Part shown: piece after piece, positions 14,898 to 35,442 of the stretch
Layout: every line of letters starts with the position of its first letter
Position numbering within the stretch: the first letter of the stretch is position 1
IMG/VR virus record: IMGVR_UViG_3300020125_000029
Coordinates: 1 to 37,224 of that record
Length of the DNA stretch: 37,224 nt
DNA from: a virus
Direction: 5' to 3' (one strand)
Notes under the pieces: generated by a model
Seen by the model: the letters and a program-made list of their open reading frames with translations, nothing else
The model's database searches: none
What the model was told of the DNA's origin: nothing
Made by a program: the position numbers and the translations under genes

Positions 14898-15773
14898 ATG
14901 CCCACATTCAAACCTGATGCCGATGGTATTCTATCGCCCGAAACTCGCAAGGCGATAGCAGCGCAATTGTTGAACGATATCGACGCATTTTGCACAAAAG
15001 AATATACAGATGAACATCGCAGCCATTTAGGAGCGTCTATTATTGGTAAGGAATGTGCAAGGGAAATCTGGTATGATTTTCGTTGGGTAAAGTATTCAGT
15101 ATTCGAGCCGCGAATGCTAAGGCTATTTAATCGTGGTAAGATGGAAGAAGAACTATTTATTAAATGGTTGCGCGGTATTGGTTGCCAAGTATGGGAAATC
15201 GATCCTGCAACTGGAAAGCAATTTCGCATTTGGGGTGTAAACGGGCATTATGGCGGTTCTGCCGATAGTGTGGGTATCCTGCCCTATCTGCCGGATTTTC
15301 CGATCTTAATGGAGTTCAAGACGCATAATACTAAATCATTTGTCAACCTAACTAACAAGGGTTTGATCCTAAGCAAGCCGCAGCATTACTCGCAAATGTG
15401 CTCTTACGGGAAGCACTATAATTTTCGCTATGGTTTATACGTCGCAGTCAATAAGAATGATGACGATTTGTATCCCGAGCTAGTCCAATTGGATTGGCGA
15501 CGGGCACATGATCTAAGCAATAAGGCACAAGATATTATTACATCACAAATACCGCCGCAACGTATCTCGGATAATCCGTTATATTTTACTTGCAAATTTT
15601 GTAACAAATCGGATATATGTCACGCTGGCGCACCAGTTGAAATCAACTGCCGTAGCTGCAAATGTTGTGTTCCGGTCCAAAATGGGGAATGGAAGTGTAC
15701 GCGATTTGATGCTATTGTGCCAAGTGAATTTATTAAAGTTGGTTGCCAATATCATATATCTATAAACATATGA
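14898..15773 (+). CDS. Cas4/RecB-like PD-(D/E)XK nuclease, 291 aa
   Basis: The protein shows the core of the PD-(D/E)XK superfamily: GASIIGKECAREIWYDFRW near 45-63, then D123 in GGSADS, and E139 with K141 in LMEFKTHN. The C-terminal 70 residues hold many cysteines (CKFCNKSDIC, CRSCKCCV), as in Cas4-like nucleases with an iron-sulfur cluster; here the exact ligands are not certain. Phage members are thought to be exonucleases for recombination or replication. ATG 14898 is a start without a strong binding site, right after the terminator. Confidence 0.8.
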   Translation: MPTFKPDADGILSPETRKAIAAQLLNDIDAFCTKEYTDEHRSHLGASIIGKECAREIWYDFRWVKYSVFEPRMLRLFNRGKMEEELFIKWLRGIGCQVWEIDPATGKQFRIWGVNGHYGGSADSVGILPYLPDFPILMEFKTHNTKSFVNLTNKGLILSKPQHYSQMCSYGKHYNFRYGLYVAVNKNDDDLYPELVQLDWRRAHDLSNKAQDIITSQIPPQRISDNPLYFTCKFCNKSDICHAGAPVEINCRSCKCCVPVQNGEWKCTRFDAIVPSEFIKVGCQYHISINI

Positions 15774-16447
15774 TTACTCCCCGCTCATATCAAGAAGATA
15801 GCCTTATTGCGATGACATACAATATTATCAAAGAAATATCTTTACCCACAATTAAACAGGACAAAAGGCGCAAGCCTGATAGTCCTAAACAGCGTGCTAT
15901 TCGAGAAGGACTTGTTTATTTTCAAGGTCGTCCATGCAAACGTAATCACGATGGCTTACGTTATACAAAAGGCGGTCAATGCGTTGATTGTATAGCTCTA
16001 GCTAGAAATAATCCTATTAGACCTAAACAACGTTCAAATCAAAATCACGAATTATCATTAGCTGCTGCGGCTAATGGTCAAACAACATATATACCAAATA
16101 AACCATGCAAGCACGGTCATTTATTACGATTTGTAAATTCAAATAACTGTGTCGAATGTGATAAATTTCAAATAGTTAAACATCAAGTAAATGGTAAATT
16201 TGCTAGAATAAAGAAGCTTTACGGACTTACAAAAGATGAATATATGAAGCTTGTCGATGCTCAATTAAGTGCATGTGCTATATGCGAAACGTATGAAGCC
16301 AATCATTTTAAATTACATATAGATCATTGTCATAAAACAAATAAAGTAAGAGGTTTACTTTGTGGAACATGCAATCAAGGAATAGGCTTATTAAAACATA
16401 ATGTAGAAATTCTTCGCAAGGCTACTTTATATTGCGAGGAAACATGA
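15770..16447 (+). CDS. Endonuclease VII-type homing endonuclease with helicase remnant
   Basis: The C-terminus is a recombination endonuclease VII (HNH) domain: CAICE (169-173), HIDHCHKT (183-190) and LLCGTCNQGIG (197-206). Upstream are two Cys/His units of the form PCKxxH...CxxC (near 55-74 and 112-130). The first 13 residues, MITPRSYQEDSLI, mimic the start of the next gene, MIALRSYQEDALT. So the endonuclease appears to have entered the helicase gene near its start, kept the old start codon and supplied a new helicase start. Stand-alone enzymes of this kind spread by homing. Confidence 0.8.
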   Translation: MITPRSYQEDSLIAMTYNIIKEISLPTIKQDKRRKPDSPKQRAIREGLVYFQGRPCKRNHDGLRYTKGGQCVDCIALARNNPIRPKQRSNQNHELSLAAAANGQTTYIPNKPCKHGHLLRFVNSNNCVECDKFQIVKHQVNGKFARIKKLYGLTKDEYMKLVDAQLSACAICETYEANHFKLHIDHCHKTNKVRGLLCGTCNQGIGLLKHNVEILRKATLYCEET

Positions 16448-18024
16448 TTGCACTTAGGTCTTATCAAGAAGATGCTTTAACTTCTATATGGAGCTATTTT
16501 GCTAACGGAGGTAAAGGTAATCCACTTATAGCATGGCCCACAGGCACTGGAAAAAGTATAATACCAGCAGTTTTCATTGAACGAATAATGAAACTTTGGC
16601 CGAACCAAAAATTTCTTCTTTTGACCCACGTTTCAACTTTGATTTCCCAAAACGCAGATGCTTTAAGAGAAGCTTGGCCGAATGCTCCACTTGGAATATA
16701 TAGCGCCGGCTTGAAGCAAAAGCAACCATTCATGCCGATTGTATATGCCGGCATTCAATCTGCAATTCGCGATCCAAGCCGTTTTGGTCATCGTGATATT
16801 ATATTCATCGATGAAGCTCATTTGATCAGCGATGAAGAAGGCTCGCAATATTTAACTTTCCTTGCGACCATGAAGCTAATCAATCCGCAAGTAAAGGTCA
16901 TAGGTATGACGGCAACTCCATTCCGCATGGGAATGGGATTGTTAACCGAAGGAAATTTGTTTACTGATATAATACATGATCTAACATCAGTTGACGAATT
17001 TAACCGGCTAATTGCTGAAGGCTATTTGTGTCCGCTCATTCCCAAACGCACCAAAGTCGAGCTTGATGTTAGCAATGTAGGCATGGCGAAAGGCGATTTT
17101 ATCGGCAGTCAATTGCAAAGCGCAGTTGATAAGCAAGAGATAACATATGCCGGATTACGCGAAGCAGTACAGCTAGGACAAGATCGCAAATCATGGTTAA
17201 TCTTTTCATCAGGTATTGAACATGCTGAACATATTGCTGCTATGCTTACAAGTTTTGGTATTGATTGCGCTGCTGTTCATAGTAAGCAAAATGCCGAGTA
17301 TAATGAACAGGCTATCAAGCATTTTAAGTCGAACACACTTCGGAGTATTGTTAATTACAGCAAGCTTACAACAGGTTTCAATCATCCTGATATTGATCTT
17401 ATTTGTGACTTTCGCCCAACTATGTCTATCCCTCTACATATACAAAAATTAGGTCGCGGCACTAGACCAGCTAACGGAAAGGAAAATTGCCTTGTACTCG
17501 ACTTCGGCCGCAATATCCCACGGCTAGGCCCGATCAATGATCCGGTTATCCCTCGCAAGAAAGGCGTCGGTAATGGCGAGGTTCCGGTAAAAATCTGTGA
17601 GGCTTGCGGCACCTACAATCACGCCAAAGTTAGATTTTGTACCGGCTGCGGCAATGAATTTGAATTTAAAGTCAAGATTGTTGCCAAAGCTGGTACTGAT
17701 GAAATATTACGTTCCGATTTGCCAGTTGTTGAATATTTCGATGTTGATTATGCAATCTATGCCAAGAAGCAAAAAGATGGAAAGCGAGCCTATATCGTCG
17801 CCAGCTATTTTTGCGGAATGCGCAAGTTTAATGAATTTGTCTTTCCCGAAAGTGCAAAATATGGTAAGCATCTGTTTCATCAATGGTGGATGCAACGCCA
17901 TACATCAGAACCACCAGACACGACAGATGAAGCTTTAAAGCATGTTTCAGAATTAAGGTGTCCGAAGCGGATACGAGTTTGGGTTAATAAGAAATGGCCG
18001 GAGGTATTAAGTGCCGAATATTGA
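16444..18024 (+). CDS. DEAH/SF2 helicase with zinc finger, 526 aa
   Basis: A superfamily 2 helicase: PTGTGKS (32-38), DEAH (123-126), MTATP (155-159) and QKLGRGTRP (334-342). A four-cysteine zinc finger follows (C385, C388, C399, C402), then a C-terminal domain with a tryptophan-rich end. Phage relatives are taken as replication or branch-processing helicases. ATG 16444 overlaps the endonuclease stop as ATGA with GAGGAA just before; the region before it has probably been replaced by the inserted endonuclease. Confidence 0.9.
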   Translation: MIALRSYQEDALTSIWSYFANGGKGNPLIAWPTGTGKSIIPAVFIERIMKLWPNQKFLLLTHVSTLISQNADALREAWPNAPLGIYSAGLKQKQPFMPIVYAGIQSAIRDPSRFGHRDIIFIDEAHLISDEEGSQYLTFLATMKLINPQVKVIGMTATPFRMGMGLLTEGNLFTDIIHDLTSVDEFNRLIAEGYLCPLIPKRTKVELDVSNVGMAKGDFIGSQLQSAVDKQEITYAGLREAVQLGQDRKSWLIFSSGIEHAEHIAAMLTSFGIDCAAVHSKQNAEYNEQAIKHFKSNTLRSIVNYSKLTTGFNHPDIDLICDFRPTMSIPLHIQKLGRGTRPANGKENCLVLDFGRNIPRLGPINDPVIPRKKGVGNGEVPVKICEACGTYNHAKVRFCTGCGNEFEFKVKIVAKAGTDEILRSDLPVVEYFDVDYAIYAKKQKDGKRAYIVASYFCGMRKFNEFVFPESAKYGKHLFHQWWMQRHTSEPPDTTDEALKHVSELRCPKRIRVWVNKKWPEVLSAEY

Positions 18025-18383: not shown

Positions 18384-19382
18384 ATGTCCCCAAGACCTAA
18401 AAAACGCACCGCCGAAGCTATTAGCGAACCAAGCACGCTATTAACAGCGTTGAAGTTCTGCGGTCTAGTTGCTCGCGATATCGGACCAATTAACGAAACT
18501 CATATTTGTCTCGGAGCAAATTGGGCATGTGCCTACAATGGTACGGTTGCTTGCGGTCATCCGATTGTCGAAGATATCTATGCTTGTCCGAATGCTAAGC
18601 TGATCATCGAAGCTCTAAGCAAATGTAATGAGCATATCAGCTTTACGCAAATGGATCGGGATAGATTATCGATCAAGTCCGGTAAGTTCAAAGCTATCGT
18701 GCCATGCATCGAACCGCACTTAATAGTAATCATGGCACCTGATCCGCCCGTTGCTGTTATCGATGATCGTTTCAAACAAGGTCTTAGCATTGTGGGCATT
18801 CTCGCTAATGAAAATGCTCAATTCGTCTATCTAGCGTCAATCTTGATGAATGGTTATAGTCTTGTTTCGACTACGGGCAAAGCAATTATTGAATATTGGC
18901 ATGGAATTAATCTTCCATCCGGCATAGCTTTACCTAAAGCTTTGGTTGAACCGTTAACCAAGACTAATAAGAAGTTGACCAAATTCGGCTTTAGTCAATC
19001 AAGCGTTACGTTCTATTTTGAAGATGAAAGTTGGATCAGAAGCCAATTGTATGCCGAAGAATGGCCGGATATAAATGCGATCTTGGATCGCCCATCGAAT
19101 GCATGGCCGGTTTCGGGCGACTTTTGGCGTGGCCTAGACGCCATAGCCGGCTTCAGCGATACGGGTTTCGTCTATTTTGATGCCGGCATACTGCGCAGCC
19201 ACGATAACGCGATCAGCGGGGCTTGCTATGAGGTTGCGGGCCTTCCCAAAGGTCTAGCTTTCCCGGCAAAGCAGCTTGCCATGATCCGACCCTATGCGAA
19301 TAGGATAGATTTTCTTTTAGATAACGGTTTGATGTTTTTCAGTAATAATATAAGAGGTTGTATAGCAGGTATAAAAAGATGA
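18384..19382 (+). CDS. Sliding-clamp-like protein, 332 aa
   Basis: The length and alternating strand-helix layout, and segments such as SIKSGKFKAIVPC and a C-terminal FAAKQL-type strand set (GLAFPAKQLAMIRPYANRID), resemble the phage proteins I associate with DnaN-like clamps. YAEEWPDINAIL recalls the entry loop of beta clamps. The evidence is fold-like, not motif-based. The position directly before the DNA polymerase supports a processivity factor. ATG 18384 is preceded by GAGC. Confidence 0.5.
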   Translation: MSPRPKKRTAEAISEPSTLLTALKFCGLVARDIGPINETHICLGANWACAYNGTVACGHPIVEDIYACPNAKLIIEALSKCNEHISFTQMDRDRLSIKSGKFKAIVPCIEPHLIVIMAPDPPVAVIDDRFKQGLSIVGILANENAQFVYLASILMNGYSLVSTTGKAIIEYWHGINLPSGIALPKALVEPLTKTNKKLTKFGFSQSSVTFYFEDESWIRSQLYAEEWPDINAILDRPSNAWPVSGDFWRGLDAIAGFSDTGFVYFDAGILRSHDNAISGACYEVAGLPKGLAFPAKQLAMIRPYANRIDFLLDNGLMFFSNNIRGCIAGIKR

Positions 19383-20239
19383 TATCTGGTATATATGCAT
19401 TATTGAATTTATTTGATGGAAAGTTTTACATTGGAAAGACGGTTAATTTTAAAGCTAGATGGAGTAAACATAGAAACGAGCTAAATAAAAATATTCATAA
19501 AAATATTCATCTTCAGCGAGCATGGAATAAGTATGGCGAACAAGGTTTTATTTTTGTAATTTTAGAAAGTGTATGGCTTCATTCTAATCTTATTGATCGC
19601 GAACAGCATTGGTTAGATGTAACAAATTGTTATAATCGAGAAGTTGGATATAATTTGAGATTGAAGGCTGAAAATAATTTAGGACTAAAGCATAGTCAAA
19701 AATCAAAAGATGCTATATCAATAGCTCATAAAGGTCTTAAACATACCGAACAAACAAAAATTAAAATGAAAGGACGACCTAAATCAGACGAACATAAAAG
19801 AAAATTAGCAATATCTAAAATCGGAAGCCTTAATGCTAGAAAAATAGATAAATGGCCTTGTGCTGATGGTTGCTATTGCAAATGTGAAAAATGTATGCAA
19901 AAAAAAGAGATTACGATAGAAAAAGGATTAGAGGCGCATTGGCAGGAGTACGCAGAAATGAAGCTTAAATGTATTGGCGGTCCAAATGACGGTGAATGGC
20001 ACGATACCGGAATATTTAATAGAGTTGGTGACTGTATTCGAGTTCAACAAAGAAAGGATTTTAAAGAAGCTTTAGCTTGCAATCCTTTTGATTTAGACGA
20101 AATGCAAAAAACTGTAGTAATACAATTTAAATTATATATGATTGATTGTTTTCATTTTGCAAAAGATGATCGTTATTTATTTCTTAGACCGCAAGAATGG
20201 TCAAGTAAGCAAGCAATAATGCATCAGTTTGACAAATGA
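19379..20239 (+). CDS. GIY-YIG homing endonuclease fused to a small phage protein
   Basis: Residues 1-95 are a GIY-YIG domain: SGIYALL, KFYIGKT, the conserved Arg in KARWSKH (R27) and a Glu in REQHW (E75). Residues about 103-155 hold NUMOD3-like DNA-binding repeats (KGLKHTEQTKIKMKGRPKSD). A Cys-rich link (CADGCYCKCEKC) follows. From M194 a different protein begins (MKLKCIGGPNDGEWH), about 93 residues long, with its own AGGAG site at ATG 19958. That part is a common small phage protein type and was probably the original gene here. Its ending (QEWSSKQAIMHQFDK) fits that. Confidence 0.8.
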   Translation: MISGIYALLNLFDGKFYIGKTVNFKARWSKHRNELNKNIHKNIHLQRAWNKYGEQGFIFVILESVWLHSNLIDREQHWLDVTNCYNREVGYNLRLKAENNLGLKHSQKSKDAISIAHKGLKHTEQTKIKMKGRPKSDEHKRKLAISKIGSLNARKIDKWPCADGCYCKCEKCMQKKEITIEKGLEAHWQEYAEMKLKCIGGPNDGEWHDTGIFNRVGDCIRVQQRKDFKEALACNPFDLDEMQKTVVIQFKLYMIDCFHFAKDDRYLFLRPQEWSSKQAIMHQFDK

Positions 20240-33112: not shown

Positions 33113-34816
33113 TTAACTTCTTGCCGGCTGCACTTCAGCAAATCCGCCATTTAAAGCCGTTTGTATCGGCGCAGACCATTCCAGCTTAAATATTCTATCG
33201 CGTGCCATGCCAAGCCTTTGCCATTGGATCGCAGTCAAGAAATCACCACCGCGACCCATGCCTTGCTCAACTGCCGCTCCGTATGTTACACCACGATTAT
33301 CCGACCAGCTTAGACTAACTTGCGGTTCTGTCAAGATTGTAGGGTCTTGCGTCCCCACTTGCATATCAGCATCAAAACCTTTGTAAGCAACGCGATCCAT
33401 ATTATTGAGCATGTGAAGAAACGTTTTGCGTCTTACAATCGGTACTCCATCATCAGTATATTTTTCTAAATCCAACGAATAGATTTTGCCAGTTTCCCAA
33501 TCGCCAATAATGTTTTGCTCATTAAAATACATGCCCACATTAGCACGACTGCGATTGAGCGAACCATCATCGATATTCAGCCATGCCCATTTAGTCCACA
33601 TTTTCGTTTTTAAAGCATACAACCAACTTTCATTGGCAGTCGGAAAGATTAATACATAAAAGGCATGTGTTCCGATTTGAAAGAAAAATCCTATGGCATC
33701 TTCGGTTGTCGGATAGTTGTTAAATCGATCAACCAAATACGGAGTTGAAATTTCAGTAATAGCATAACCAGTACCCATAACGACAATATTTTTACCCTGC
33801 TTATCTTGCATCAACCAAATACCGATAACATCAGTATTAGCGCATGTATATTGCGCTATGCATCCATGTTCAATGTAGGCACCTTGCACACGTTGAAAGA
33901 AGAAATCCGCTGCGCCAGTACCTATCCAAACTTCGGTAGTAAGTTGACCAATTAACCATAATTCATCATGGATGCTTAAAATTGCAACAATCGGATCAGC
34001 CGAACCGCTCTTAGCCGCGATATCGAGCGGATCAAACGATAATGCGACTGCGGTAATAGTATAGGTGAAGCCTGCACCGGCCCCACCAAGATCAGCATTG
34101 GAAGCTGAAAGTACGTCGCCAATAATGTAATTTTTACCGCTATTGCCAATATCGACCGTGCTAACAGCACCGCCGCCGCTTACTGTAATTGTTGCGGTAG
34201 CTTCTGTACCAGAACCACCTGTTAACGGCACATTTTGATAAGTACCAGGAACATAAGCAGCGCCGCCAACAACCGTTCCGCTTCCGATTGCCGTACCCGA
34301 AAGCATTCCATAAGTCGGATTAGACAACGATATATAAAATTGATTGGTCTTTGGTCGATTAAAAATGAAAAATGTATCTTGAAAGACAACGAAATCAGCA
34401 CCTAAGAAACTCGGATCAGTAATTTGCGCAAACGCATTTGTTTTAAGATCAATCGCCCATCCGTCAACACCATCAACCAAAACTGCGGCTGTTCCATTAT
34501 CCGCCATATAAACTTGTGACACTTTCGATGGAATAGTGCCTACAAGAATGAGCGCATAATTTGTAGCAAGAAAATAGACTTGGGTATCGATAACGACATA
34601 AGCCGTACCGATTGAAGTGCGATAAGTACATCTTGCCTTTGCGGCTGGTACTGGCGTTGCTCGCAACGTTAATCCAGGTGTCGGATAATAGGTTATCGGT
34701 GCTGGTGCTTGCGGATCAGCGGAATTATCTTCAGCGTAAAGATTAATAGTTTCTTGATTGCTGGCTATACCGCTGCGCTCGACATATGCCCTACCAGTTA
34801 AGGGAATGCGAGCCAT
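33113..34816 (-). CDS. P22 gp10-like tail/packaged-DNA-stabilisation protein
   Basis: A 567-residue beta-rich protein. The start (RAYVERSGIASNQETINLYA, then YYPTPGLTL) and the regularly spaced strands suit the P22 gp10 tail hub family, which closes the portal and holds packaged DNA. An extra module at about 177-258 (GSGTVVGGAAYVPGTYQNVP, TATITVSGGG) looks like a small Ig-like or bacterial surface domain inserted in the barrel. ATG 34816 overlaps the endonuclease stop as TAATG. Confidence 0.85.
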   Translation of the reverse strand: MARIPLTGRAYVERSGIASNQETINLYAEDNSADPQAPAPITYYPTPGLTLRATPVPAAKARCTYRTSIGTAYVVIDTQVYFLATNYALILVGTIPSKVSQVYMADNGTAAVLVDGVDGWAIDLKTNAFAQITDPSFLGADFVVFQDTFFIFNRPKTNQFYISLSNPTYGMLSGTAIGSGTVVGGAAYVPGTYQNVPLTGGSGTEATATITVSGGGAVSTVDIGNSGKNYIIGDVLSASNADLGGAGAGFTYTITAVALSFDPLDIAAKSGSADPIVAILSIHDELWLIGQLTTEVWIGTGAADFFFQRVQGAYIEHGCIAQYTCANTDVIGIWLMQDKQGKNIVVMGTGYAITEISTPYLVDRFNNYPTTEDAIGFFFQIGTHAFYVLIFPTANESWLYALKTKMWTKWAWLNIDDGSLNRSRANVGMYFNEQNIIGDWETGKIYSLDLEKYTDDGVPIVRRKTFLHMLNNMDRVAYKGFDADMQVGTQDPTILTEPQVSLSWSDNRGVTYGAAVEQGMGRGGDFLTAIQWQRLGMARDRIFKLEWSAPIQTALNGGFAEVQPARS

Positions 34817-35442
34817 TATTTACGGCCTTTAGAAGTAGCTGGAATAAGTAAACGTTCTTTCGGCCATTTCATCTTAATTCTCACATACATCGCAGGCCAA
34901 CTAATACCGGCTCTTTTAGCCGCATGTGCAATACTCATTTTACCTTCAAGAGTATCAACCCAAATTGTAGAACGTCTATTGTTAGCTTGTTCTGATTTTG
35001 GTATCCAAATACAATTATCTTTACAATAATTACCGTTTACTTCTTTACGTTCTATTGTTAATCCAGGTTTATAAGTCGGATACATATCATCAAAGAATTG
35101 TTGAAAATTATTTAACCATTCATCACACATTCGTATCCCTCTAGCGCCGTAATCTTTATAGGGATATGAATTTTTATTATAGCACCTAGTTTTAATTCCT
35201 TGCCAAACTCTATAAAAATTAATCTTATCTTTTCGGCTCATTCCGTGAGTAGTTACAAAATGTGGATCGCAGTTACCGCAAGATTTTATTGCACCAGCTT
35301 TTAAATGTGCTCCGCGAAATTCTTTTTCAATTCCACAATCGCATTTACATAACCAATAAAGATAACGATGTTTTACTAAAGTTGATCTAATACCAACTAA
35401 TTTGCCAAATCTCAATCCTGTTAAATCTGATCGCTTTTTCAT
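34816..35442 (-). CDS. HNH homing endonuclease, 208 aa
   Basis: The N-terminus is a zinc-ribbon-like domain (DLTGLRFGKLVGI, LCKCDCG, SCGNCD). The HNH-like core follows: THGMSRKDKINFYRVWQGIK, RCYNKNSYPYKDYGARGI, DEWLNNFQQF, IERKEVNGNYCKDNCIW and EQANNRRST. This is a widespread family of phage homing endonucleases. It has its own AGGAG site and lies between gp4- and gp10-like genes. The gene before it appears cut short by a frame break. Confidence 0.85.
   Translation of the reverse strand: MKKRSDLTGLRFGKLVGIRSTLVKHRYLYWLCKCDCGIEKEFRGAHLKAGAIKSCGNCDPHFVTTHGMSRKDKINFYRVWQGIKTRCYNKNSYPYKDYGARGIRMCDEWLNNFQQFFDDMYPTYKPGLTIERKEVNGNYCKDNCIWIPKSEQANNRRSTIWVDTLEGKMSIAHAAKRAGISWPAMYVRIKMKWPKERLLIPATSKGRK

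Follow-up and report, generated by a model that had tools for sequence, protein, structure and literature searches.

The virus record IMGVR_UViG_3300020125_000029 of IMG/VR has 37,224 bases and is here called the window (L085 in our comparisons of loci). At positions 14898-18024 it carries, in this order, the genes of a Cas4-like exonuclease, of an EndoVII-type nuclease and of a superfamily 2 (SF2) helicase, and the open reading frame (ORF) of the nuclease begins with what looks like the first codons of the helicase. Our reading, which comparison among related sequences makes probable, is that a homing element lies inside the essential helicase gene and brings with it a recoded replacement for the 5' end of that gene, in what would be a natural 'home-and-rescue' design. 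At the level of sequence, the comparison gives the site of the element, the order of its parts and its direction (the upstream stub being the old start and the downstream start the new one), together with the element boundaries in terminase and tail genes, a mostly synonymous recoding and the recurrence of the layout. The features of the locus are as follows.

14898 to 15773, plus strand: Cas4-like exonuclease gene (phrog_1990, E = 1e-97), with an ATGA overlap with the following EndoVII gene
15770 to 15811, plus strand: stub (MITPRSYQEDSLIA), made up of the first 14 codons of the old helicase and continuing in frame into the nuclease
15812 to 16447, plus strand: EndoVII/HNH nuclease proper; the homologue in locus L008 has its start codon at the position equivalent to ATGACATAC at 15812
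16205 to 16438, plus strand: Endonuclease_7 catalytic domain (PF02945, residues 146-223)
16444 to 16485, plus strand: putative replacement helicase start, codons 1-14 (MIALRSYQEDALTS), with a nuclease-like GC content at third codon positions (GC3) of 0.14
16444 to 16623, plus strand: helicase residues 1-60, nearest to L090/L091, the body being nearest to L002/L003
16444 to 18024, plus strand: complete SF2 helicase (phrog_16; ResIII and Helicase_C domains)

Two Helicase Starts in the Window

The EndoVII ORF, which spans 15770-16447 with the stub included, has the N-terminus MITPRSYQEDSLIA-MTYN... and opens with MITPRSYQED; the helicase (16444-18024) has the N-terminus MIALRSYQEDALTS-IWSY... and opens with MIALRSYQED, so that nine of the first 14 residues are identical. 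Both junctions are ATGA overlaps, the TGA of the Cas4-like gene (15771-15773) overlapping the ATG of the EndoVII ORF at 15770 and the TGA of the latter (16445-16447) overlapping the helicase ATG at 16444. These similar starts and the pair of junctions had been pointed out in an earlier note on this DNA, and both are confirmed in the sequence. Scanning with a profile built from helicase starts locates the upstream copy at 15776, with p = 1.6e-6 per position and E = 0.001 for the gap. In a more general test, in which the start of the gene downstream of a nuclease was sought upstream of that nuclease in 135 testable distinct loci, the window scored 43, the highest of 424 mispaired nulls reaching 34.

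Could the likeness be accidental, or could the N-terminal domain of the nuclease simply resemble a helicase start? Either is hardly credible in our judgement, even if the copy has 14 residues only and R.YQ starts are common in this helicase family: the E-value for the gap and a score above all 424 mispaired nulls speak against chance, and the version involving a nuclease domain is refuted by L008, where copy and nuclease are in different frames, and by L136 and L160, where the two are separate. An intron-encoded homing endonuclease is ruled out as well, since no Rfam family was matched in the seven loci searched, the window region included, and the ORFs are continuous without splicing.

Helicase Loci With and Without a Nuclease

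When viral contigs were searched with the helicase, 114 distinct loci could be parsed, namely those kept after loci with identical sequence stretches had been dropped; the same procedure left 79 loci for the terminase, 164 for the upstream-copy set and 70 for the tail gene. We call a helicase locus empty when the Cas4-like gene lies at most 60 nucleotides (nt) from the helicase, which is the case in 41 of the 114. The earlier note had proposed that in relatives free of the endonuclease the upstream nuclease gene should join directly to a helicase beginning with a SYQE motif, and this check came out in its favour: the Cas4-like gene adjoins the helicase directly in these 41 loci, 39 of which have an R.YQ motif within the first 25 helicase residues. 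The nearest relative, L002 (helicase 84% identical), has an ATGA junction, the start MIQPRPYQEASIHLIW and the opening MIQPRPYQEA. A nuclease gene is present or absent at one place in alike genomes, as seen from the 41 empty helicase sites and, for the large terminase gene (terL), from L311 compared with L277 and L334 (97% identical flanks). The junction between the Cas4-like and helicase genes is a hot spot of insertion, with 45 more loci that have a gap there without recognised nuclease or stub.

At the same site as in the window, L008 carries a nuclease 58% identical to that of the window, preceded by a separate stub of 15 codons, MINLRYYQQEALNAL, whose stop codon forms an ATGA overlap with the start of the nuclease, ATGACATAC (MTYEI). 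The window frame runs through ATGACATAC at 15812 without the stop found in L008; because the L008 nuclease start matches this position, the nuclease proper of the window begins at residue 15 (M15) and the 14 codons before it are a helicase stub. In L136 and L160, stubs of about 16 and 30 codons stand ahead of an unrelated HNH nuclease (phrog_374), and the nuclease families associated with helicase stubs are two, EndoVII and phrog_374 HNH. Helicase stubs occur in four of the 16 nuclease-bearing loci (the window, L008, L136 and L160) versus one of the 98 others. This sole stub without a nuclease, at L165:2850-2987 of Pseudomonas phage PSV3 (OP712460), is an exact tandem repeat of the helicase start and could be an assembly artefact. 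The helicases of L244 and L008 have N-termini that are 98% identical in protein sequence, with different EndoVII genes in front and no stub in L244, which suggests that nucleases may have been swapped ahead of one helicase start.

Recurrence in Other Genes

In the upstream-copy test, nine of the 135 loci scored 42-73, four at helicases, four at large terminases and one at a tail gene; these loci, like the 127 used for the converse test below, constitute a biased sample, the helicase and terminase sets having been fetched after stubs were seen there, and the frequencies are not unbiased estimates. L184 scored 34, the likeness there being between nuclease-type sequences, and one further stub case, L410, turned up later among the tail-gene loci. 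Outside helicases, stub layouts are found at the large terminase (L026/L028, L036, L304 and L311) and at the tail gene (L031/L032/L034 and L410). The arrangement of stub, nuclease and complete gene is seen with nucleases of two families and at targets of three unrelated kinds (helicase, large terminase and tail gene), with stubs of 13-30 codons.

The mirror image of this layout, at the 3' end of a gene, is rare, with two convincing cases among 127 testable loci, L228 and L055. In L228 (2366-2917) an EndoVII gene follows a Cas4-like gene that has the new C-terminus ACDKWFPI; the nuclease itself ends in the old C-terminus, GCDQWLPI, fused to it with the overlapping start of the next gene retained. 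In L055 (3878-4297), ADVFAHMIPADEEV stands before the EndoVII gene and ADIFAHMIPADDDP after it. A further candidate, L359 (score 41), was rejected as a tandem of nuclease genes.

Old and New Starts in Terminase and Tail Genes

For the terminase, 80 relatives at 85-91% identity were fetched, and 59 of the 79 distinct loci are empty. In L311, the clearest case, the 450 nt upstream of the element are 97% identical to L277 and L334 and 88-89% identical to L303 and L319; its stub matches the intact terminase genes of these four loci at 47 of 47 positions, followed by an abrupt mismatch. By comparison with the same intact genes, the new start of L311 (nt 4-51) matches at 28-29 of 48 positions, the changes being mostly synonymous, and the gene is native again from about nt 52-54 to its end, where the identity is 95-96%. 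L304, in which another gene precedes the stub, gives 44/47 for the stub, 33-36/48 for the new start and 94-95% for the rest. In both loci the end of the stub (nt 47 or about 51) and the resumption of native sequence (about nt 52-54) nearly coincide, and the two occupy ranks 1 (L311) and 2 (L304) of 79 for the excess of synonymous divergence in codons 2-16 over codons 21-120. Of the 82 loci parsed for the tail gene, 75 are empty, and the three distinct loci bearing a nuclease, L410, L031 and L032, are ranks 1-3 of 70 for 5' divergence; the L032 stub matches L393 at 52 of 57 positions, and the gene start of L032 diverges and then turns native.

The terminase and tail stubs match intact relatives and the downstream starts do not, which marks the upstream copy as the resident start and the downstream copy as the newcomer. 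A divergent gene end brought by the element, together with a native end that is displaced and kept, is found in L311, L304, L031/L032 and L410, the window being only suggestive in this respect. The earlier note had held that the element entered past the first helicase codons, took over the old start and brought a new one along; the direction read from terminase and tail stubs supports this account, and for the window alone a foreign new start is suggested.

All four terminase elements (L304, L311, L028 and L036) have a spacer between stub and nuclease with a conserved box that resembles an extended -10 promoter motif. Just before the nuclease start, these spacers form a hairpin that covers the likely ribosome-binding site (-8.0 to -13.5 kcal/mol in 51-base folds), reminiscent of those restraining T4 homing endonucleases. 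The 8-nt stop/start overlap (ATGTCTGA or ATGGCTGA) at the junction between small terminase and terL in empty relatives is reproduced exactly by the last codons of the nuclease. L283, L289 and L297 have a different HNH nuclease, with no stub, between the small and large terminase genes; codons 2-16 of terL show divergence and a rather high AT content in these loci, and the start may have been replaced there and the stub lost.

Synonymous Recoding of the Replaced Start

The new starts of L311 and L304 differ at 9% of sites, compared with 21% for the gene body and 22% for the stubs; to judge from these sequences, the replacement start travels with the nuclease and is common to elements in different hosts. 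Between stub and new start, 66 of the 113 changed codons in ten elements are synonymous, for 14.5 expected at random and a maximum of 29 in 20,000 simulations, a count in which the L136 pair is one codon out of register, lowering the synonymous excess (in register, this pair has eight synonymous and three non-synonymous changes).

These data bear on the possibility that the start of the helicase was duplicated locally in tandem, in the manner of a target-site duplication, with the nuclease inserted afterwards between copies that drifted neutrally. The exact repeat of PSV3, which has no nuclease, is a parallel for the first step. We consider this history very improbable nonetheless, since the predominance of synonymous differences implies that both copies were parts of working proteins, evolving as functional starts, for most of their divergence, which argues against a decayed local duplication. 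Moreover, of the two copies in L311, one does not differ from relatives and 40% of the other has changed, for the most part synonymously; the new start is also common to elements in different hosts. Finding the codons of the new start native in the nearest empty relative would favour the duplication; the opposite holds so far.

Origin of the New Start in the Window

In the window, GC3 is 0.40 in the Cas4-like gene, 0.36 in the stub and 0.37 in helicase residues 61 to the end, compared with 0.18 in the nuclease and 0.14 in helicase codons 1-14. The stub matches the host genes and the downstream 5' end of the helicase matches the nuclease, and this downstream end looks element-borne. Across the ten elements, GC3 is higher in the stub than in the new start in seven and equal in three. 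In a ranking of loci by how far the divergence of helicase codons 2-14 exceeds that of the body, the window comes second of 80; loci sharing identical stretches of sequence and loci lacking a near relative had been dropped from this set. Helicase residues 1-60 are nearest to L090/L091 (78/77%) and the body to L002/L003 (86/85%), the Cas4-like gene being also nearest to L002, a pattern that is only suggestive of a donor/recipient mosaic. The L136 stub lies four of 45 nt from L265, with zero amino-acid changes, and the L136 new start at least 11 away. The nearest Cas4-like relative, L071 (90%), ends short of the junction, so that the closest possible empty site is not readable. A donor origin of the new start in the window has our moderate confidence, being suggested by these data, not statistically proven.

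Several observations weigh against a displaced old start and an imported new one. For helicase residues 1-60, the approximately unbiased (AU) tree test does not reject the clade of the body (p = 0.157), and p = 0.043 is reached only with L004 added. From known intact starts the window stub differs at 13 nt and the new start at 11, the stub not being the nearer of the two; L160, L008 and L136 rank 21, 33 and 54 of 80 for excess 5' divergence, and the GC3 of the stub is nearer to that of the body in only six of the ten elements. Among terminases, L026 and L036 are not divergence outliers, having no close empty relative and the nearest ones being highly diverged. No clear stub was found in 23 regions of cultured phages and four bacterial genome contigs; the best helicase-like candidate there, L366:2854 from a metagenome-assembled genome of Ottowia sp., scored 22, within the null range, as did L363 (27) and L482 (26). 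The EndoVII ORF of L366 begins near MKLRDFREQG and its helicase with MQLRSYQQQA; it has perhaps a decayed helicase stub. Finally, 11 of 13 EndoVII-bearing helicase gaps are without a stub; either the stub was lost in them or homing also happens without one.

Stubless nucleases at the helicase junction, with those at terL in L283, L289, L297 and L293, lend weight to ordinary intronless homing, in which a nuclease between genes cuts elsewhere, the stub is the accident of one illegitimate joining at the left end, and the new start was co-converted from a divergent donor. The variable length of the stubs agrees with this, and free-standing endonucleases of T4 cut hundreds to thousands of base pairs away according to passages of PMC2988022. 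An accident of this kind is nevertheless unlikely, given that three target genes and two nuclease families show the same layout and that stub end and native resumption nearly coincide in the terL genes of L311 and L304, as with insertion at a cut site. The reading of an element inside the gene, carrying a recoded start, remains our preferred one.

The Nuclease and Its Companions in the Window

The Endonuclease_7 domain of the window nuclease is recognised with E = 4.9e-21 (74.9 bits, the curated cut-off being 23.6), and the protein matches T4 endonuclease VII (1e7d) with E = 1.1e-6. The segment DHCH...RGLLC..CN and the residues C169, C172, D185, H186, H188, C198, C201 and N202 are invariant among six aligned relatives. 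The window nuclease, which aligns to 1e7d, has the CxxC...DH.H...C..CN core of Endonuclease_7. From its sequence the gene belongs to the EndoVII-type HNH nucleases of PF02945, with predicted activity. It has the catalytic domain in common with T4 endonuclease VII, gp49, which resolves DNA junctions in packaging, and differs from it in the zinc-binding-like repeats (CxxC pairs) that precede the domain and in its mobile context.

The window has three different homing-type nucleases. A GIY-YIG nuclease at 19367-20239 has an ATGA overlap with the start of the DNA polymerase (20236), and is similar in its C-terminal part (MKLKCIGGPNDGEWH...) to a small ORF that stands by itself in L004 (MKCIGGEADDQYHEV...), as if the nuclease had been fused to a resident small gene. 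The third, a phrog_374-type HNH nuclease at 34816-35442 on the minus strand, abuts the next gene (TAATG), and no copied start of the following gene was seen upstream of it.

Relation to Known Systems

The closest known kind are the mobile ORFs (mORFs) of fungal mitochondria, which passages of PMC3630166 describe as making hybrid genes in Allomyces (atp6) and Glomus (atp6, atp9, cox2 and nad3): An endonuclease within coding sequence brings a divergent gene end, fused in frame to the host gene, and the displaced native end stays behind the endonuclease, nearly identical to that of relatives. The phage elements likewise bring a replacement gene end and keep the displaced one. As portrayed in those passages, mORFs involve the 3' end and LAGLIDADG or GIY-YIG enzymes in mitochondria, whereas the phage elements involve the 5' end and EndoVII or HNH enzymes, preserve start/stop overlaps and sometimes have the stub fused to the nuclease.

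The seg and mob nucleases of T4 are free-standing HNH or GIY-YIG enzymes encoded beside essential genes, without an intron and often overlapping their neighbours (passages of PMC2988022), and parts of a survey of phage nuclease neighbourhoods also place free-standing nucleases beside essential genes (PMC10448857). By these accounts, the T4 types sit between genes and cut far off, whereas the elements considered here sit inside a gene and carry a piece of their target. The passages concerned in both sources make no mention of copied gene ends, nor does 'duplicat' occur in the review text of PMC2988022, and we found no phage report of stub, nuclease and replacement start in the open-licence literature of PubMed Central. 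Free-standing endonucleases lie between genes and leave the target undivided and unduplicated; here, a 5' stub of the target stands upstream of the nuclease. Because they do not lie between genes, these elements are not plain free-standing homing endonucleases, and we place them with homing elements that carry a replacement gene end, a kind already known. Engineered home-and-rescue (HomeR) drives, as outlined in part of PMC7968924, home into an essential gene with a rescue, and the allele bearing the drive works; they are synthetic, CRISPR-based and used in insects, whereas the phage elements are natural and would provide a partial rescue, of the 5' end.

Possible Mechanism and Meaning

In mechanistic terms, the element would sit about 14 codons into the helicase gene and consist of the stub, the nuclease gene and a replacement 5' end in frame with the remainder, the stub representing the first codons of the resident helicase, presumably no longer the start of a working one. 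Helicase genes that are still intact would be cut by the nuclease in the region of codons 14-18. At the break, the left end, which carries the Cas4-like gene and the first codons, would then pair with the stub and the right end with the helicase body, these being the homology arms, and repair would copy in the nuclease and the replacement start. Encoding nearly the same protein with different codons, the replacement would leave the gene functional and uncut, and would recombine poorly with the stub. The synonymous differences would fit selection that favours resistance to cutting and disfavours recombination with the stub; long residence in an AT-rich element would contribute to them too. Cleavage, the cut site and the immunity of the replacement we infer from the layout.

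We also incline, with some reserve, to the wider view that phages carry a class of natural home-and-rescue elements, in which an HNH or EndoVII nuclease would insert at a fixed site among the first 13-30 codons of an essential gene for a helicase, terminase or tail protein and bring its own synonymously recoded version of the 5' end of its target. The hybrid gene would work, resist the nuclease and not recombine it away, and imprecise repair of a cut target would destroy the essential gene. Annotation pipelines will misread the stubs as N-termini of nucleases or as spurious small genes. Given the layout, sequence alone would suffice to predict where each nuclease cuts, with a precision of a few codons, and a large number of unassigned phage nucleases would become directly testable. 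Such a class would explain how a selfish gene can reside unspliced inside an essential coding sequence, namely by bringing a rewritten piece of that gene, and would constitute, with two nuclease families and three targets, a natural counterpart of the synthetic home-and-rescue gene drive.

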